Of a DNA stretch of 64,000 nucleotides, positions 10,903 through 44,227 are shown one piece after another (within the stretch, counting starts at the first letter, position 1; each line of letters begins with the position of its first letter). This stretch comes from an uncultured Coriobacteriaceae bacterium (GTDB taxonomy: Bacteria > Actinomycetota > Coriobacteriia > Coriobacteriales > Atopobiaceae), in contig CACZFB010000002.1 of the NCBI GenBank assembly GCA_902780305.1, positions 124,001 through 188,000 on the forward strand, in the 5' to 3' direction. The position numbers and the translations under genes were made by a program. A model generated the notes under the pieces. That model saw only the letters and a list, made by a program, of their open reading frames with translations, did not search any database and was not told the DNA's origin.

Positions 10903-10977
10903 GTCCCCATCGTCTATCGGCTAGGACGGCACCCTTTCAAGGTGCAGAGGCGGGTTCGACTCCCGCTGGGGGCACCA
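10903..10977 (+). tRNA. tRNA-Glu (TTC), CCA encoded
   Basis: The acceptor stem GTCCCCA/TGGGGGC, anticodon stem GCACC/GGTGC around loop CTTTCAA (anticodon TTC), T-arm GCGGG-TTCGACT-CCCGC and encoded CCA (10975-10977) form a complete cloverleaf. TATACT (10887-10892) is the likely -10 box. The 3' end is the attachment site for the downstream island. Confidence 0.96.
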
Positions 10978-11076
10978 GACCGCGAAGAGTCGAACTCGGT
11001 TTCAACCGATATCAGTTCGCTCTGAGAATATGGATGGAGTAGGGCAACACGCTCTGCTCCATTTTTTTGCAGGTAG
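10957..11076 (+). repeat. Left copy of ~119-bp island-flanking direct repeat (attL-like)
   Basis: Starting in the tRNA-Glu T-arm and running through its 3' end and terminator to GCAGGTAG, this segment recurs at 23405-23523 with only a few changes, in the same orientation. This is the signature of integration at a tRNA gene with the 3' end duplicated. The copies enclose about 12.3 kb. Confidence 0.88.
11034..11068 (+). terminator. tRNA-Glu intrinsic terminator
   Basis: ATGGAGTAGGGC (11034-11045) pairs with GCTCTGCTCCAT (11051-11062) with two wobbles, followed by seven Ts. It is repeated at 23482-23515 within the island-flanking repeat. Confidence 0.92.
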
Positions 11077-12463: not shown

Positions 12464-12535
12464 GCAGCGCGTTGCTGTCTCTGTATCACGCATTGCGAAC
12501 CATAAATACACGGCCACAAGAAACTTCATTACCCT

Positions 12536-17721: not shown

Positions 17722-17754
17722 GTCATACCTCGCAACACGAAGGCGGTGGTTTTC

Positions 17755-19771: not shown

Positions 19772-19818
19772 AATATTGCAGCATGCTGCAATATTTGCTA
19801 GTCTTGCAGCATGCTGCA
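19772..19818 (+). promoter_or_regulatory. Twin palindromic operators of hipBA
   Basis: AATATTGCAGCATGCTGCAATATT spans 19772-19795 as a perfect 24-bp palindrome (core TGCAGCATGCTGCA). The same 14-bp core recurs at 19805-19818, with centres 28 bp apart. Both lie directly before hipB, as expected for autorepression by a HipB dimer. Confidence 0.85.
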
Positions 19819-19837
19819 TATCGAGAAAGGACTCAAC

Positions 19838-20143
19838 GTGCAGATAACATCGTCCGCCGAAGCTGGGATCCTCGTCCAATCGCTCAGAGAGTCCCGAGGG
19901 CTCAGCCGCAAGGAGCTCTCTGACAACTCGGGCATACCGTTGAGAACCGTCTATGCAGTAGAGAAAGGCGAGCTCAACAACCTGAGTGTGGACAGACTCG
20001 TAGCGCTCCTCACGGCGTTGAATGCTTGTCTGGACGTTCACGTCGCAAAGCCTGAGGCAGCAGAAGAAGCTGAGGCGAATCGTCTGGTAAAGATAGCCGC
20101 AACAGGAACCCTCGATGCGGACAGGTGGAGGCTCCTGCTATGA
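19838..20143 (+). CDS. hipB: HipB-type antitoxin, XRE repressor
   Basis: 101 residues from GTG 19838 (preceded by GAAAGGA). The helix-turn-helix is LVQSLRESRGLSRKELSDNS then GIPLRTVYAVEKGE, typical of HipB. Its stop overlaps the hipA start as ATGA. In known pairs HipB binds palindromic operators, neutralises HipA and represses the operon; the twin palindromes just upstream fit this. ATG 19811 would lie inside the second palindrome and is less likely. Confidence 0.88.
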   Translation: MQITSSAEAGILVQSLRESRGLSRKELSDNSGIPLRTVYAVEKGELNNLSVDRLVALLTALNACLDVHVAKPEAAEEAEANRLVKIAATGTLDADRWRLLL

Positions 20144-21441
20144 GCGACCACCATCGTACGCTCCTGCTCTATATTGCTGGCTCGCTTGCAGGACATGTCC
20201 TGCAAGACGAGGATGGAGCGATGAGCTTCACGTACGAGCCCTCCCACTCGGGTTCGCCCGTGTCCCTATCCATGCCTATCGCGCCTGCTACATACCCGCA
20301 GCGCATCATACGTCCCTACCTGCAGGGGCTCCTTCCAGACGACCCGTCGGTGCGCGCGAACATCGCGGACCGTTACAACTGCTCGGGCGAGAACCCCTTT
20401 GCTCTCTTAACCCACATCGGCCTTGATTGCCCGGGCGCTGTCCAACTCGTACCAGATTGCGCAGCCCCTCTGGTTGAGAGTGGGTCCGGCAGCCTCATTG
20501 AGCTGTCGGACTCAGACCTTGAGGAGCGTCTGCGCCTTTTGCGAGAACGTGCCTCCAGCCCTTGGGAGGCGGGCCGTACGGGACGATGGTCGCTCGGTGG
20601 CGCCCAGTCAAAGATGGCTCTCCGATACCAAGACGGACGATGGTATGACTGCGAGGGATCCGAGCCCACGACACATATCCTTAAGCCAGGCGTCATCGGA
20701 TACGACAACCAAGCCCTCGATGAGTATCTCTGCCAAAAAGTGGCATTGGCAATGGGGCTGCCTGCGGCACAGGTTGAATACCTTGCCTTTGGCTCCGAGC
20801 ATGCGGTCTCCATCAAAAGATATGACCGCGCCTCAAATGAGGATGGGACCGTCGTCAGGGTGCACCAAGAAGACCTTTGTCAGGCTCTCGGCGTCGACCC
20901 CAGTCGTAAGTATGCCGAACAGGGTGGACCCTCCTCTCCCGACGTGCTGGCGCTGCTCGGCAATACCGGTGCCGATGGGCCCCGCAATCTGCAGCTTTTT
21001 GTCCTGTATTTGCTGTTCAACTACTTTATGGGCGCCACCGACGCGCATGCCAAGAATTACTCCGTTCTTCTTGGAGTTGGAGGCACGGCCCTCCTCGCAC
21101 CTCTGTACGACGTCGCTTCCATAGCGCCGTATCAGTCGCTTTCTCCAAGGCGTAGAAAACCGCTTAGAGCGGCCATGTCCATAGGTGGCGAGAATCGTTT
21201 TGGCATGCTCGACAGCAAGCATCTTGAGCAGCTCTCGCATAACAAGGGCCTCGCAGCCGCTGGCATAACGCGCGAATGGATCATGGCGTCTGCCGAACGT
21301 ATGGCTACGGAAGTTCCTCAGGCACTGCAGGCAGTCTTGGACGAAGCAAGCGAAGCTTGTTTGGTTGGAATAAAGAAGGTCGGTCCAGCTCTCATACATG
21401 AGGTAAGTGCAAACTGCAGGCGGTTTCTCGAACGCCTCTGA
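20140..21441 (+). CDS. hipA: HipA-type Ser/Thr kinase toxin
   Basis: 433 residues. An N-terminal subdomain (YIAGSLAGHVL, then PYLQGLLPDD) leads to the kinase core: WSLGGAQSKMAL (P-loop-like Gly/Ser segment), THILKPG, NYFMGATDAHAKNYSVLL (catalytic Asp and Asn) and LAPLYDVAS (metal-binding Asp). HipA kinases inactivate glutamyl-tRNA synthetase in E. coli; the target here is unknown. The insertion stands beside tRNA-Glu-like repeats. All key residues are present, so it is probably active. The start overlaps hipB by four bases. Confidence 0.92.
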   Translation: MSDHHRTLLLYIAGSLAGHVLQDEDGAMSFTYEPSHSGSPVSLSMPIAPATYPQRIIRPYLQGLLPDDPSVRANIADRYNCSGENPFALLTHIGLDCPGAVQLVPDCAAPLVESGSGSLIELSDSDLEERLRLLRERASSPWEAGRTGRWSLGGAQSKMALRYQDGRWYDCEGSEPTTHILKPGVIGYDNQALDEYLCQKVALAMGLPAAQVEYLAFGSEHAVSIKRYDRASNEDGTVVRVHQEDLCQALGVDPSRKYAEQGGPSSPDVLALLGNTGADGPRNLQLFVLYLLFNYFMGATDAHAKNYSVLLGVGGTALLAPLYDVASIAPYQSLSPRRRKPLRAAMSIGGENRFGMLDSKHLEQLSHNKGLAAAGITREWIMASAERMATEVPQALQAVLDEASEACLVGIKKVGPALIHEVSANCRRFLERL

Positions 21442-21705
21442 GGGTTCGACTGCTTCGCGGACGGGGGCACCATGTTAATGAGGCTCTCCCTCCCAGGAGA
21501 GCTTTCTTGTTAGGTCAACCTCTGGGGAGTCGAACCCGTGAGGGCGCAAGGCGCCAGTGGCGCCTTGCGGGCTGAGGCCGAAGGCCGAAGCCTCGGAGCC
21601 TTGCCGAAGGCAAGGCGGGACTCCCGCTGGGGGCACCATCGCAAACGAGCTTCCCACAACGGGGAGCTTTTTTGTTTGGTTAACTCTAGGGAGTCGAACC
21701 CTACG
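21442..21705 (+). repeat. tRNA-Glu 3'-end-like element with hairpins, left of ATPase B
   Basis: GGGTTCGACT...GGGGGCACCA (21443-21472) resembles the tRNA-Glu T-arm and acceptor end. Hairpin GCTCTCC/GGAGAGC with T-rich tail, CTTGTTAGGTCAACC and AGTCGAACCC follow, the last pairing with the opening GGGTTCGACT. A 12-bp stem CGCAAGGCGCCA/TGGCGCCTTGCG comes next, then a second GGGGGCACCA (to 21639) with its own terminator AGCTTCCC/GGGGAGCT-TTTTTT. The first ~200 bp recur at 23236-23426, bracketing the ATPase. Confidence 0.8.
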
Positions 21706-21820
21706 CCCCGTTCCCGTGACACGCTCCACCCGAGGTCGTGTGCCGAGGCGCTACTTTCGCACCTGGGACAAATACCCTCTTGCCTCGTCCCTATGGCGCC
21801 ATAACACTTTCAGCTTGTAT

Positions 21821-21900
21821 CGCAATAATCCTCGGCTTCATACCGCAATATCCCTTGGAAAACTGGCGCAATTATACTCGATTGTATAGCGCAAAATCCA
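21821..21900 (+). promoter_or_regulatory. Four 23-bp-spaced iterons CGCAAt
   Basis: CGCAATAATCC, CGCAATATCCC, CGCAATTATAC and CGCAAAATCC begin at 21821, 21844, 21867 and 21890, exactly 23 bp apart. A TATACT hexamer (21873-21878) falls within the third unit, so a protein bound here would cover the promoter. The gene starts at 21942. Confidence 0.88.
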
Positions 21901-21941
21901 TCGGCGTGAGTTACACTTGAATTAATGGAGGAGGGGGACAC

Positions 21942-23222
21942 ATGCAGTATCTGCCAAGGATTGCAGACAGTTTGCTTGCACGTAAGCTGCAGGCGTTTGG
22001 TGCGGTCAACATTACCGGCCCCAAGGGTTGTGGTAAGACTACGACAGCTCGACAGCAGGCAAGGAGCGTCGTAGAGTTTCAGGACGAGGATACGCGTGAG
22101 GGCTTGCTGCAAGTCGCCGAAACTCAGCCGTCTCGCCTGCTCATCGGCGATAATCCGCGACTCTTGGACGAGTGGCAGGACGCCCCCAAGATGTGGGGTG
22201 CCGTGCGCAAGTCCGTTGACGACCGTGGTGAGAAGGGCCTTTATATTCTTACCGGGTCATCGTCAACAGATGTTGAAACACCGCACACGGGCACTCTGCG
22301 CATATCCACACTCCAGATGTTGCCCATGAGCCTCTGGGAGACGCGGGAGTCTAACGGCGAGGTGTCCCTAACCGACCTGTTCTCCCACCCTGGCGGCTTT
22401 GATGGATGTCACTCGGACCTCACAGTCGATGGCATCATCTACGCAATCTGTCGAGGAGGATGGCCAGGCACGCTTTCGATTGATGATGTCGATATACGGT
22501 TGGATATCGCACGTGACCTCTTTTGGCAGACCACACACGTGGACATCTCGCATGTCGATTCCACACGCCGTAGTCCTCAGCTGGCCGAGGCAATTCTCCG
22601 ATCGTATGCACGTAACATATGCACCCCCGCTAAGACGGGAACCATGCTTGCAGACGTGCAGGCAAACCACGATGTAGGTGAAACGGCATTCAGAGAATAC
22701 GTCAGTGCGCTCGAAAAGCTTGGTATAGTCGACGATCTGCCAGCATGGTCACCCGCCATACGCTCAAAGACCGCAATCCGCACTGCGAGAAAACGAAATC
22801 TGATTGACCCCTCGCTGGCAGTCGCGGCGCTTGGCATCACCCCCGAATACTTCAACACGGACTTTAAGACACTTGGTTTCCTGTTCGAGTCACTGTGCAT
22901 ACGGGATCTTAAAGCGTACTCATCGGAACTCGGTGGCCAGATGTCCTTCTATCGAGATCGATACAACCTTGAAGCCGATGGCGTTCTGCACCTTTCGGAT
23001 GGCCGCTATGCACTCATTGAATTCAAGCTCGGATCGAACGAAATCGAAGACGGCGCCGCCCACCTGTGCAAAATAGAGAAGCTGGTGCGTCAGCACAACG
23101 AACAAGAGCGGCAGGTACCACTGCGCCTGCCCGATCTTAAGCTCGTGGTAACCGGAACAGAGTATGGATATAAGCGCGATGACGGTGTTATTGTCGTTCC
23201 CATAGGGTGCCTTGCGCCGTGA
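21942..23222 (+). CDS. P-loop ATPase with D...ExK domain (copy B)
   Basis: 426 residues. Walker A GPKGCGKT (26-33), Walker B-like RLLDEWQD (about 73-80), then a Ser/Thr sensor-1 region (YILTGSS). The C-terminal domain has LEADGVLHLSDGRYALIEFK, a PD-(D/E)XK-like D...ExK core. It belongs with copies D (28548) and G (58320) in a subfamily beginning YLPRIAD-LL--KL--GAV. ATG 21942 follows GGAGGAGGGGG. It sits between ~190-bp direct repeats and behind four 23-bp iterons. No function is known. Confidence 0.88.
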   Translation: MQYLPRIADSLLARKLQAFGAVNITGPKGCGKTTTARQQARSVVEFQDEDTREGLLQVAETQPSRLLIGDNPRLLDEWQDAPKMWGAVRKSVDDRGEKGLYILTGSSSTDVETPHTGTLRISTLQMLPMSLWETRESNGEVSLTDLFSHPGGFDGCHSDLTVDGIIYAICRGGWPGTLSIDDVDIRLDIARDLFWQTTHVDISHVDSTRRSPQLAEAILRSYARNICTPAKTGTMLADVQANHDVGETAFREYVSALEKLGIVDDLPAWSPAIRSKTAIRTARKRNLIDPSLAVAALGITPEYFNTDFKTLGFLFESLCIRDLKAYSSELGGQMSFYRDRYNLEADGVLHLSDGRYALIEFKLGSNEIEDGAAHLCKIEKLVRQHNEQERQVPLRLPDLKLVVTGTEYGYKRDDGVIVVPIGCLAP

Positions 23223-23235
23223 GTCCGCTCGCGGG

Positions 23236-23426
23236 GTTCGACTCCCGCTGGGGCACCATGTTAATGAAGCTCTCCCTCCCAGGAGAGCTTTCTTGTTAGG
23301 TCAACCATTGGGGAGTCGAACCCGTGAGGGCGCAAGCGTCCAGTGGACGCTTGCGGGGTGAGCGCGGAGCGCGAACCCCACGAGCCTTGCCGAAGGCAAG
23401 GCGGCGACTCCCGCTGGGGGCACCAG
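23236..23426 (+). repeat. tRNA-Glu 3'-end-like element, right of ATPase B
   Basis: This repeats 21442-21643: GGGTTCGACTCCC pairs with GGGAGTCGAACCC around hairpin GCTCTCC/GGAGAGC and its T-rich tail. A second stem CGCAAGCGTCCA/TGGACGCTTGCG is a compensated version of the left copy's stem. GCCTTGCC/GGCAAGGC and a final CTCCCGCTGGGGGCACCA follow. The two copies bracket ATPase B; the right end merges into the island-flanking repeat. Confidence 0.85.
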
Positions 23427-23523
23427 ACCGCGAAGAGTCGAACTCGGTTTCAACCGTTATCAGTTCGCTCTGAGAATATGGATGGAGTAGGGCAAAGCGC
23501 CCTGCTCCATTTTTTGCAGGTAG
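23405..23523 (+). repeat. Right copy of island-flanking direct repeat (attR-like) with terminator
   Basis: Matches 10957-11076: tRNA-Glu 3' end, GACCGCGAAGAGTCGAACTC, the ATGGAGTAGGGC hairpin (23482-23510) with six Ts, and GCAGGTAG. The tRNA body is absent, so this is the duplicated end of an integration event. Bases 23509-23555 also resemble 45034-45083. Confidence 0.85.
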
Positions 23524-33134: not shown

Positions 33135-36100
33135 CTACTTCTTGCCCTTCTGCTTGAACGGCGCTGAGAAGCGCTGGGTGATGCCGTTGAGGGTGGGGCC
33201 TGGGCCCGGACGACCCTTCTTCACCAGCACGATCTGGATGCCCTCCAGGCGCCTCGAGTAGCCGGCCGAGCCGGAGCGCTGGCCGTTCTTCGCCCAGCCC
33301 ATCCAGCCGAACTTCTGGCAGTGGACCCGGTAGTACACGTCGTAGTACTGCTCCACCTCGCCGTAGAGCTTTATCTCGATTGCCTCGAGGCGGAGAGACT
33401 TGCCCGAGGTGCCGGCCATCCTGCCGTACTTGCGCCATCCCTGCCAGCCTATGCGCTGCACGTGCGTGCGGTACTGGATGCCGCCGCTGTACGGGAGGCG
33501 GTTCAGGTAAATGTTGATGCCCTCCAGGCGCAGCGACTTGCCGGACGTTCCGCTCATGGCGCCGTCGGCCACATACCTCTGCCAACCCTTACGCTGCACG
33601 TGGGTACGATACTCGACGCGTGGGGCCTCGCTGATGGAAAAATGTGAGGTAGCACTGCCCGTGTAGTTTCCCCTGCCCGTGACGGTGACGGTGGCGGTGC
33701 CGACGTTAACGTTGTTGGCATACGACACGGTGTAGCCCGACGCGGGGACGGTCATCGAGTAGTCCGCTTCCACCCTCTCTATGTCGGGCGTTTGTTCGTA
33801 TCCGTCGTAGATGTGGCGACCGCCTTTGACGCTGACGTAGTTGATCGTGGCGGGGTCGATGCGGAAGGTGGCCGACTTGGACCCGGAATAGTACCCCTTC
33901 CCAACCACGGTGACCGTGGCCGTGCCCGCGTCGGTGTTGTTGGAGTACCTGACCTCGTAGTCGGTGCCGTTGCGCAATGTCTGGGCGCCTAGAGTGACGG
34001 TTACCTCGGGCTTCTTCTGCGTGCCGTCGTAAGTGTACGTCTCGTAGCTTGGTAGCGTGACGCGCGTCGAGGACATGGGGATCTCGCCCCTCCCGAAGCG
34101 CCTCAGGTACACGTCGGCGACCCCCTGCCGGTTCTGGAGATCGTTGAATGAGAGGAACCTACCGAGAGCCTTCGAGTACCAGTACCTCGTGCCGTTTAAT
34201 TCGTTGTTCGGAAGAGAACTGACCTGCAGCCTGTGGTTCTTCCCAACCCTGACCTCCGAGAGTGACGCGCAGTTGGAAAAAATACTATAGCTGAACTCCA
34301 CGGAAGAGGTGTCCCATCTCGAGAGGTCGAGGGATGTGAGACGCGTGCAACCGGAGAACATCTCGTGCATGTTCTCCACCTTCGACGTGTCCCAACCATA
34401 TAGGAAACCCACTGAGGCCAGCGACGAGCAGCCGGAGAACATCTCGTGCATGTCCTTCACCTTCGACGTATCCCATCCCGAGAGGTCGCCCACGGAGGTG
34501 AGCTGCGAGCAGCCCGAGAACATGCCGTCCATGTGCGTCACCTGGGACATGTCCCAGGTCGAGAGGTCGCCCACGGAGGTGAGCTGCGAGCAGCCCGAGA
34601 ACACGCCACTTGTTTGCCCTATGGGCGAAATGTCCCATTTGGATAGGTCCCCCACGGAGGTGAGCGACGAGCAGCCGGAGAACAGACCCATGATGCATGT
34701 CACCGATCCCATGTCCCATCTCGAGAGGTCCCCCACGGAGGCCAGCGACGAGCATCCGTAGAAAAGGTCATACATGCTTGTCACCTTCGACACGTCCCAT
34801 CCCGAGAGGTCGCCCACGGAGGCGAGCTGCGAGCAGCCCGAGAACATGTCGCCCATGTGCGTCACCTGGGACATGTCCCAAGTCGAGAGGTCCCCCACGG
34901 AGGCCAGCGACGAGCAGCCGTAGAACGCCTCATCCATGCTTGTCACCTTCGACACGTCCCAGCCCGAGAGGTCGAGAGAGGTGAGTGAGCTGCAACCGTA
35001 GAACATTGAGCCCATGCTCCCCAATGACCCCGTTTGCCAACCTGAGACGTTAAGGGACGATAGCTTTCTCATCCCAGCGAACGAGGGCGCTGTGTTCCCG
35101 AGATTCCAGCCGGATAGGTCCATGGTCTCGAGCCTTGGGCATTCGTCGAAGAGACTATACATGTCGGTCACGTTGGAGACGTCCCATCCAGGCATCCTGA
35201 TCGTCTTGAGAAGCGTGCAGCCTTCGAACATGCCTCGCATGTCAGTCACGTTCGACGCGTCCGCACCCGACAGGTCCATCGAGGTCGCCTTGTCGAGGCC
35301 GCTGAGCAGGTGACTGCAGTCGGACGGGAGTATGACGGACGACTCGCCCTCCCTGGCGAAGACGACGGAGGCGACCGAACCCTTGTGGTCCTCCCAAGGC
35401 GAAGGGGTGGAATAGTTCTGGCTGGCCCCCTCGCCCGGGTGCACCGTGAGCGTGCCGTTCGCGTCGATCTCCCACTGGCAGGTGCCCCATGTGCCGGAAG
35501 GCCGCTCTCCGCTCGCCTGCGCCCTCATCGTCACGGGCTCCGCGACGGTCATCGTCCCAGCCGCAAAAGACACCTCGTAGTCGCCCTGCACCGCCTCGCC
35601 CGAGGGCGTGATGTCGTACCCGCCGGGCTCCTCGCCGGCGTCACGGGTGAGCTCATACGCGACCTTGTCGTCGCCCACGAGGCCCTCGATGGTGGCGGTG
35701 AGCTCGGGGTCCGCCTCGCCCTTGGCCTTGGACTTGTCGTCGGCCGTCACGGTCGCGCCCCTGCGCGCGATCGACCAGCGCAGCTCCACGGCGCCCGACG
35801 TGCCGTCCTCCCACACGTGTCCCTCGGCAGGCGTCGCCGTGGCGACGTAGTCGCCCGCGTGCGTGGCGGCAACGTCGCCAGCGAGCTCGTAGCCGTCGCC
35901 GGCGGTCACGCCGACCTGCTCGGTGCCGTCGTAGGAGAGCCCCTCGGCCACACTGGGCACCGCGACGCGCGACGCCTCTGTGGCGACGCCCGCTGGCTCG
36001 CCCTGTGACTGGGACTCTGGGGTGCCTCCGGCCTCCCCCTGCGCCGCTGGGGCGGGCTCGGCAGACTGGGCCGTGACCGTCGCCTCCTCGACCATCTGGG

Positions 36101-42800: not shown

Positions 42801-42831
42801 TGCCCATGATGCTTTAGTGGCAGTAAGCGTT

Positions 42832-42886
42832 ACTCGAACTCGAACCTAAGAACTTCCTTAGTTCCACAGTACACTTCCTAAGTAGA
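42832..42886. repeat. 55-bp direct repeat, left of Schlafen-type regulator
   Basis: ACTCGAACTCGAACCTAAGA and the rest to CTTCCTAAGTAGA recurs at 44173-44227 with a single mismatch in 55 bases. Here it lies beyond the 3' end of the gene; the other copy is at its 5' end. Confidence 0.9.
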
Positions 42887-42961: not shown

Positions 42962-44137
42962 TTACCTGTTGATTCGATATCTGCGACGCGGGCTGTTCAG
43001 CGTCCCAATTGCCTCGATGGTCCCCGCATTGATGAGCCGGTTTATATAGCCGCGAGCGGTCTTGGCGCTCACTCCCGCCGCACGAGCAACCTCAGAAGCA
43101 CTAGCGCTTTCGCGGCCAGATATATACGAGAGGATTGCCTCCTCAACGTTCTTGCTGGAGTATCCTTTTCCCTCCTCATCAGTCATCTTTCTATGACGGA
43201 ACATTATGCCGAACTGATCGAGGCTGCTGTGGATGATGGGCTTGTCCATCAACGCTCGCTCTAGCTCGTAATTGATGGTCGGGTACCCGGAACCTCTGTT
43301 CTCGACGACTCGCCCGACACGTCCATCAAAGTCGGTGTAGGGGACGTCCTCTAGGATTCGCGCCAGGAATTGGTTTCTCGAAGCCGTTGCACCACGCTGG
43401 CCAAGCACGTCCACGGTAAGCACGCCGAAGAGTCCACCGGGATTGGTTATCTCAAGGCGATCTGGGTAGAGGTCCACAAGGACAGGCGTTCCATGTCCGT
43501 CAAGTGAGTAGTCGCGGTGCATGAGTGCGTTCGCGACCGCCTCGCGAATGGCGGGCAGCGGGTAGTCGGGAATATCCTCGCGCAAGGCGCCCTTGACGAT
43601 GGCGCCATGGAGCATGTTCCGCGAAACCGCTCGCACTGCATCCACGACCATGGCGGGAATGGGTCCGTCGATGTTCTCCGAATCGGAGAAGCGAACACCC
43701 CCTTTTCCAGGTATGCCGTCTTTCGTGGTTGGATGACTGGTGAATACGACGTCGAGGCGCGGGAAGAACTTCTGTGGGTACGATCCAAGCGCCATGATAC
43801 CCGCCACGGTGGGCCGCAGGATGCCGTTGTCGTCGGGAGAAGCAACCCGACGATTAGCCATGAGGTCCTCGTCCGAAAGGTTATCCGTGCGCCCAAGCGA
43901 AGTAGAGCGAACCCGAGAGAGCCACCCAGACAAAATCGTTGAGTCGAGGTCATCAAGTGTGGCGTCGGGAATCACGACCACGTCATTGCGAGCAGTGCGA
44001 TGCTGGTTCTCGATAAAGCGGTCGATTTCGTACAGCGACATCTTGTGGTCGCCGTCGCCCGTGCGGATGTACGATCCGTTTATCTGCCCCAGGCGTTTGA
44101 CGTAACAAGGCTTCTGGCGTGCGTTTGCCTCGGGCAC
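42962..44137 (-). pseudogene. Schlafen/AlbA-type ATP-binding regulator, 5'-truncated
   Basis: 391 residues remain of a COG2865-type protein. It opens in the end of the AlbA_2 domain (RQKPCYVKRLGQINGSYIRT). A GHKL ATPase-like section follows (AIREAVANALMHRDYS, then VLVDLYPDRLEITNPGGLFG) and a C-terminal winged helix (ASEVARAAGVSAKTARGYIN). The frame upstream is stopped inside a 55-bp repeat, removing the first ~100 residues. It may still make protein from GTG 44137. Such proteins are often autoregulators in defence-like loci. Confidence 0.72.
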
Positions 44138-44172
44138 GTTAACGACGACAACGGGACGTTCCTCGAACTCAT

Positions 44173-44227
44173 ACTCGAACTCGAACCTAAGAACTTCCTA
44201 AGTTCCACAGTACACTTCCTAAGTAGA
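44173..44227 (-). promoter_or_regulatory. 55-bp repeat with three CTTAGG units, upstream of regulator
   Basis: The 5'-side copy of the 42832 repeat. Read on the minus strand it has CTTAGGAAGT, CTTAGGAAGT and CTTAGG spaced 21 and 11 bp, two and one helical turns. This looks like an operator for a winged-helix protein such as the gene product itself. Confidence 0.65.

Follow-up and report, generated by a model that had tools for sequence, protein, structure and literature searches.

A folded, non-coding and probably mobile unit of tRNA 3' ends, found in two copies around an ATPase gene at a tRNA-Glu locus of an uncultured Coriobacteriaceae bacterium

An ATPase gene flanked by two direct repeats with tRNA-like ends raises the question of what the repeats are, and whether they and the gene form one module. 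tRNA genes are classic entry points for mobile DNA. The window, which is the whole 64,000-nt stretch analysed here, comes from a 3.19-Mb draft genome and carries the repeats at positions 21442–21643 and 23236–23426, with 88% identity over 155 nt in register. A preliminary description had interpreted this layout as a gene cassette with folded recombination sites, and its account of the repeats themselves was borne out. tRNA-Glu 3'-end-like stretches lie at about 21442–21473 and 21616–21638 in the first repeat and at 23234–23258 and 23403–23425 in the second, and each repeat also has the terminator hairpin and the stems that had been described. One stem, CGCAAGGCGCC-AGT-GGCGCCTTGCG in one copy and CGCAAGCGTCC-AGT-GGACGCTTGCG in the other, is compensated exactly, with 11 of 11 pairs formed in both. 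The inverted tRNA T-arm GGGGAGTCGAACCC, absent from that description, occurs at 21524–21537 and 23310–23323, ahead of the hairpins, and makes the outer stem. The cores of about 100 nt (units A and B) had folding energies of −65.2 and −65.9 kcal/mol, compared to shuffled means of −43.5 and −40.6; none of 200 shuffles reached the energies of the window cores, and z values were −5.8 and −7.9 for RNA and −5.8 and −6.9 for DNA. The repeats are probably two copies of a non-coding mobile unit of about 165 bp, with the 3' ends of tRNA and tmRNA genes as its insertion sites.

The sole tRNA gene in the window, tRNA-Glu(TTC) (10903–10977, +), is the target gene, and is in this genome an empty site, followed directly by its native downstream sequence with a terminator (T1; 10978–11067, +). 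A second copy of T1 (23426–23515, +; 96% identical) marks the distal end of an island, and since the tRNA 3' end and the native downstream sequence recur together at 23405–23515 (96%), the segment 10978–23425 is read as an island grown at the end of the tRNA-Glu gene. Its neighbouring cargo includes a HipA-like toxin gene (20125–21441, +) beside a HipB-like gene (19811–20143), both assigned by Pfam. Right after the HipA stop codon, and outside unit A, stands a tRNA-Glu-tail-like end of another kind (GGGTTCGACTGCTTCGCGGACGGGGGCACCAT; 21442–21473, +). Unit A (21474–21638, +; covariance model match 21526–21624, 82.6 bits; fold) comprises a terminator, the inverted T-arm, a GNRA stem (21535–21544), hairpins 1 (21545–21569), 2 (21570–21592) and 3 (21598–21616), and a direct T-arm half with the acceptor tail (21619–21638). 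The ATPase module (about 21639–23258) begins with a truncated third unit (21639–21700, +), consisting of a terminator and an inverted T-arm (21688–21700) with no core. It continues with the ATPase gene (21942–23222, +; AAA_14 and DUF4143 domains by Pfam), which appears to be the cargo of a separate insertion, and directly after it comes a copy of the tRNA-Glu tail that is one G shorter (23234–23258, +). Unit B (23259–23425, +; covariance model match 23312–23411, 93.9 bits; fold) has the same parts, with the GNRA stem at 23321–23330, hairpins 1 to 3 at 23331–23355, 23356–23378 and 23384–23402, and the T-arm half with the acceptor tail at 23405–23425. Elsewhere in the 64 kb, ATPases of similar make lie at 17746, 26175, 28548, 56480 and 58056, in addition to 21942; AAA_14/DUF4143 domains were checked with Pfam for 17746, 21942 and 28548. 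The window also contains seven copies of an 81-bp tandem repeat (34307–35007), within a long minus-strand reading frame, and a partly tail-like 72-nt repeat (GGTGGCACCACCCTGGCACAGGCT...) at 12515, 45124 and 62806.

Comparison of copies from many genomes revealed a constant architecture. The unit, which as a single insert measures about 165–190 bp including its own terminator, runs from the terminator through the inverted T-arm, a CCC-GNRA-GGG turn and hairpins 1–3 to the 3' half of the T-arm, the acceptor strand and CCA. Hairpin 1 has 11 bp of highly variable sequence, hairpin 2 a tandem G-A internal loop, and hairpin 3 a GNA loop in 49 of 58 resolved cases, while the loop of the turn is GNRA in 65 of 68. 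With alignments fitted to the models, which somewhat inflates such figures, 98.1% of cells were paired in a Coriobacteriales-dominated set of 72 distinct copies, and 31 of 36 pairs had two-sided changes (493 two-sided cells, versus 133 after shuffling and no more than 68 after sliding); in a set of 39 copies from Bacillota and other Actinomycetota, mostly Clostridia, the values were 96.0% and 24 of 27 pairs (208 cells, versus 58 shuffled and at most 40 slid). The perfect folds of single sequences are independent of this fitting. Covariation of the stems is overwhelming, and the earlier proposal that selection acts on the fold rather than the sequence is supported by the 72-copy set.

The strand on which the fold works can be judged from the same copies. 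G.T pairs outnumbered A.C pairs by 35 to 13 in one tally and by 46 to 6 in another, and this excess, together with the GNRA loops, indicates that the working form is the tRNA-sense single strand. For the same reasons, the alternative that the reverse strand acts as a tRNA-like RNA was disfavoured. The evidence leans to RNA, with single-stranded DNA also compatible, and indicates an RNA function no less strongly than a DNA site. The main rival to a mobile unit is an RNA function tied to tRNA genes: the copies would be functional structured RNAs (e.g., decoys of the tRNA 3' end or antisense to it, serving maturation or stress control), and any mobility would be incidental. Beyond the loops and the G.T excess, it could draw on the tandem G-A internal loops, the perfect antisense to the T-arm and the fixed distance from the tRNA; the genomic evidence given below opposes it, and we consider it unlikely.

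When the first repeat was used as a query, relatives turned up behind other tRNAs, and a covariance model (R1) then detected copies in 22 of 60 relatives. Across the Atopobiaceae, R1 matched in 47 of 140 species, and in 9 of 35 genera in a tally of more complete genomes. A DNA pattern search of one genome per species, covering bacteria and archaea, recovered the same layout in Clostridia, Coriobacteria, Bifidobacteriaceae and Propionibacteriaceae. A second model (R2), built without hairpin 3 and the outer stem since the Bacillota copies could not be aligned on their right-hand side, identified 19 copies in Emergencia timonensis and 14 in a Collinsella; a Clostridia-type (Firmicutes) genome had 10 and a Propionibacteriaceae genome 9. 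The search of related genomes with a covariance model, as suggested in the preliminary description, was in its favour: the element occurs elsewhere and its stems covary in the additional copies. An association with small gene cassettes was not supported, as most units stand directly behind a tRNA with no gene. Phage and plasmid collections yielded no match to the unit, and viral contigs gave pattern matches only at chance-level scores. In a covariance search with Rfam 15 only tRNA genes reached the gathering score and the unit was unmatched, and in the open-access literature, to which the search was confined, nothing similar was found. We have high confidence in the existence of the family, in its structure and in its link to tRNAs. 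Past the tail of the unit, at L072 and L141 and more loosely at L119, there is a conserved stretch (CCACGTCGCAGC...GCTCCGT.GCTGCTCCTTC.CCC) that recurs in different orders.

The link to tRNAs is close. Forty-eight of 73 distinct units sit 26–64 nt (median 53) downstream of a tRNA or tmRNA gene of at least 18 kinds, and the remainder mostly follow another unit in tandem or are close to the end of a contig; in E. timonensis, a tRNA or tmRNA was present in all 12 regions fetched. Both ends of the unit match the gene at which it resides. The direct tail has a mean of 18.6 matches to its own tRNA versus 12.4 to other tRNAs, and the inverted 13-nt T-arm has 0.46 mismatches versus 2.07, with no more than one mismatch in 64 of 67 cases. 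Where the 5' strand of the T-stem is GAG or AGG and not GGG, the stem of the turn loop is in several cases altered on both strands to match (seen at tRNA-Pro, tRNA-Arg and tmRNA). Units behind tmRNA 3' ends, with ends matching the tmRNA, were also observed (L097, 1101–1624; L340; L350). The matched ends imply a unit in which an inverted T-arm and a GNRA turn precede a direct T-arm that three hairpins interrupt. In our reading, the folded unit would rebuild the T-arm duplex, with the hairpins bulging from the T-loop.

Ends copied from the target, along with RNA-like motifs, would also suit a retroelement-like process, with an RNA copy and re-priming by reverse transcriptase at the tRNA gene. 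In genome G007, with 13 units, no match to the reverse transcriptase family PF00078 was found at E 1e-10, and the presence of reverse transcriptase does not track the number of units, which makes such a process hardly credible. The same genome gave no match to the Y1 transposase family PF01797 at 1e-8. Reverse transcriptase and Y1 transposase were accordingly rejected as resident movers, although units in G007 could still be mobilised from elsewhere, without a resident Y1 transposase.

Comparison of loci with the same flanks revealed precise empty sites. At tRNA-Leu(TAA) G007 is empty and G010 occupied, at tRNA-Arg(ACG) G003 is empty and G006 occupied, and at tRNA-Glu the window is empty and G013 occupied, where (L027) the T1-type downstream sequence comes after a unit. 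The occupied state contains one unit with its own terminator and a doubled tRNA tail, and this polymorphism is one between species. A block of direct-repeat identity from the T-loop to CCA, combined with a precise empty site, is what is seen with tRNA-integrating elements of the tyrosine type. Cores up to 90% identical were found at different tRNAs, namely Phe (G007) and Leu (G010), and Glu (G014) and Arg (G006). The nearest neighbour of a core was at another tRNA in 35 of 57 cases and at the same tRNA in another genome in 22 of 57, versus 5.6 expected. Similar cores at different tRNAs, each with the ends of its own tRNA, indicate that cores spread between tRNA types and that ends are renewed. 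We therefore have moderate confidence, from sequence comparisons, that the unit is mobile in its own right. A functional RNA might instead be gained and lost along with tRNA neighbourhoods, for which we see little likelihood: occurrence is patchy between close relatives and the empty sites are precise, and units form tandems of two or three, the outermost often truncated, with a terminator ahead of the unit, all of which looks more like a selfish element than like a regulator that is retained. The preliminary description had named what would speak against it, i.e., a repeat found only here, without empty sites or covariation; the outcome was the reverse on each count.

The direct repeat from T-loop to CCA resembles class II tRNA att sites, so that the units might be CIME-like attL/attR remnants left behind by ordinary integrative elements that target tRNA genes, their hairpins being incidental. 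Also in keeping with this, a large serine recombinase gene in G007 ends in a tRNA-Leu tail, and similar recombinase-like ends exist at the present tRNA-Glu family. However, remnants would not be expected to share one conserved, covarying fold in two phyla and at 18 tRNA kinds, together with an inverted T-arm; given covariation in both sets of copies this explanation is disfavoured, and we regard it as very improbable. The G007 recombinase frame (L287, 2–1204) ends within the tRNA-Leu(TAA) 3' end in antisense, with the C-terminus ..GRGGGTRTRKPCGERF. In the window, tails of the second kind (GGGTTCG.CTGCTTCGCGGACGGGGGCACCAT) stand after the HipA gene (21442), where a serine-recombinase-like reading frame ends (42711), and after another gene region (44298); in relatives, this type of tail overlaps the last, C-terminal codons of a serine-recombinase-like gene. 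These three tails are probably attR ends of serine-recombinase elements; Pfam did not recognise the short recombinase-like remnants there. Between the last two, 56-nt direct repeats (98%; 42831–42886 and 44172–44227) bracket a gene with a HATPase_c_4 domain (42962–44137, minus strand). G005 (L025) has the 56-nt repeat once and lacks the gene, representing a clean empty site for it.

The ATPase gene itself proved separable from the unit. The closest copy (92%) is found in G001, on the contig with tRNA-Glu; behind it comes a tRNA-Glu-tail-like end of another type, GGGGCTCGCCC...GGACGGGGGCACCAT, and the vicinity has no folded unit; the ATPase was therefore rejected as an obligatory partner or cassette of the unit. 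G014 has two directly adjoining units before the same downstream sequence as in the window. This arrangement equals that of the window minus the ATPase module, so the bracket is best read as the product of serial insertion, with several insertions piled up at one tRNA-Glu gene. Two units also bracket a gene at tRNA-Arg(ACG) of G006; in larger inserts at this locus, the common repeat begins at the anticodon and not at the T-loop. The idea of a gene cassette with folded recombination sites is partly supported: selection for the fold, the copies elsewhere and the empty sites in relatives are in its favour, and the ATPase as a cassette is not supported. An integron-like system, with the T-arm as attI, the units as attC, and the ATPase and other genes as cassettes of an integron-type integrase, would account for a single-strand fold that restores the target duplex and is conserved over sequence, as in attC, and for island genes on the tRNA strand that are followed by a tail or unit. 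Against it, the integron integrase model TIGR02249 had no hit over the cut-off in 25 genomes, and none even at E 1e-20 in G006, G007 and G013; RYYYAAC (R'') and GTTRRRY (R') boxes in attC order around the fold were found in 0 of 77 copies; and in place of the cassette order of gene then site, most units are geneless, as the ATPase copy is unit-less. For the known integron family this reading is largely refuted, and overall we deem it improbable.

For the mobile unit that we favour, the following course is proposed. The three-hairpin domain interrupts a second tRNA 3'-end copy within its T-loop. Such an insertion would leave the tRNA intact, as judged from the full tail and terminator on the left and the second tail on the right. 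When the unit is single-stranded, the inverted T-arm would pair with the split direct T-arm into a duplex T-arm, i.e., the target site, from which the three hairpins bulge, and a putative mobilising factor may recognise this rebuilt fold. The unit would be non-autonomous and moved in trans by a putative recombinase, although our confidence as regards the enzyme is low. Since a unit derived from one tRNA should spoil the acceptor stem of another, matched ends call for an extra copying step, and a target-templated step may renew them. In the window, successive insertions at a single tRNA-Glu gene would have left the ATPase between two units. We tentatively suggest, while leaning slightly against so broad a claim, that these foldback units of Bacillota and Actinomycetota, which would enter nearly every kind of tRNA or tmRNA gene at the T-loop, have their ends renewed from the target and rebuild its duplex when single-stranded, are a new class of mobile nucleic acid. 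If so, a folded element that matches each tRNA at both ends and doubles its 3' end would represent a novel lifestyle at tRNA sites, and may also shape the insertion sites of larger elements. The 19 copies in the cultured E. timonensis offer concrete loci for testing the mechanism.

Among known systems, the att sites of large serine recombinases at tRNA genes correspond to the tails at 21442, 42711 and 44298; unlike the unit, these have only the acceptor end in common with the tRNA and no folded core. REP/REPIN sequences with their RAYT transposases are, like the unit, short, non-coding, hairpin-rich and present in many copies per genome, but the unit sits at tRNA 3' ends and is matched to its target, and G007, one of the two genomes of its genus that are richest in units, has no Y1 match. 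Integron attC sites (CALIN arrays) resemble it as imperfect palindromes that, once folded as single strands, restore a duplex recombination site with bulges, and in forming tandem arrays. The unit differs from them in lacking RYYYAAC/GTTRRRY boxes and an integron integrase over the cut-off, in being mostly geneless, in having the tRNA T-arm as its target, and in ends that vary with the tRNA. The tRNA-targeting integrative elements and CIMEs of the T-loop class share with it the T-loop target, the direct repeat from T-loop to CCA and the restored tRNA; compared to these, the unit is only about 165 bp long and non-coding, and combines one core found at many tRNA types with an inverted T-arm.
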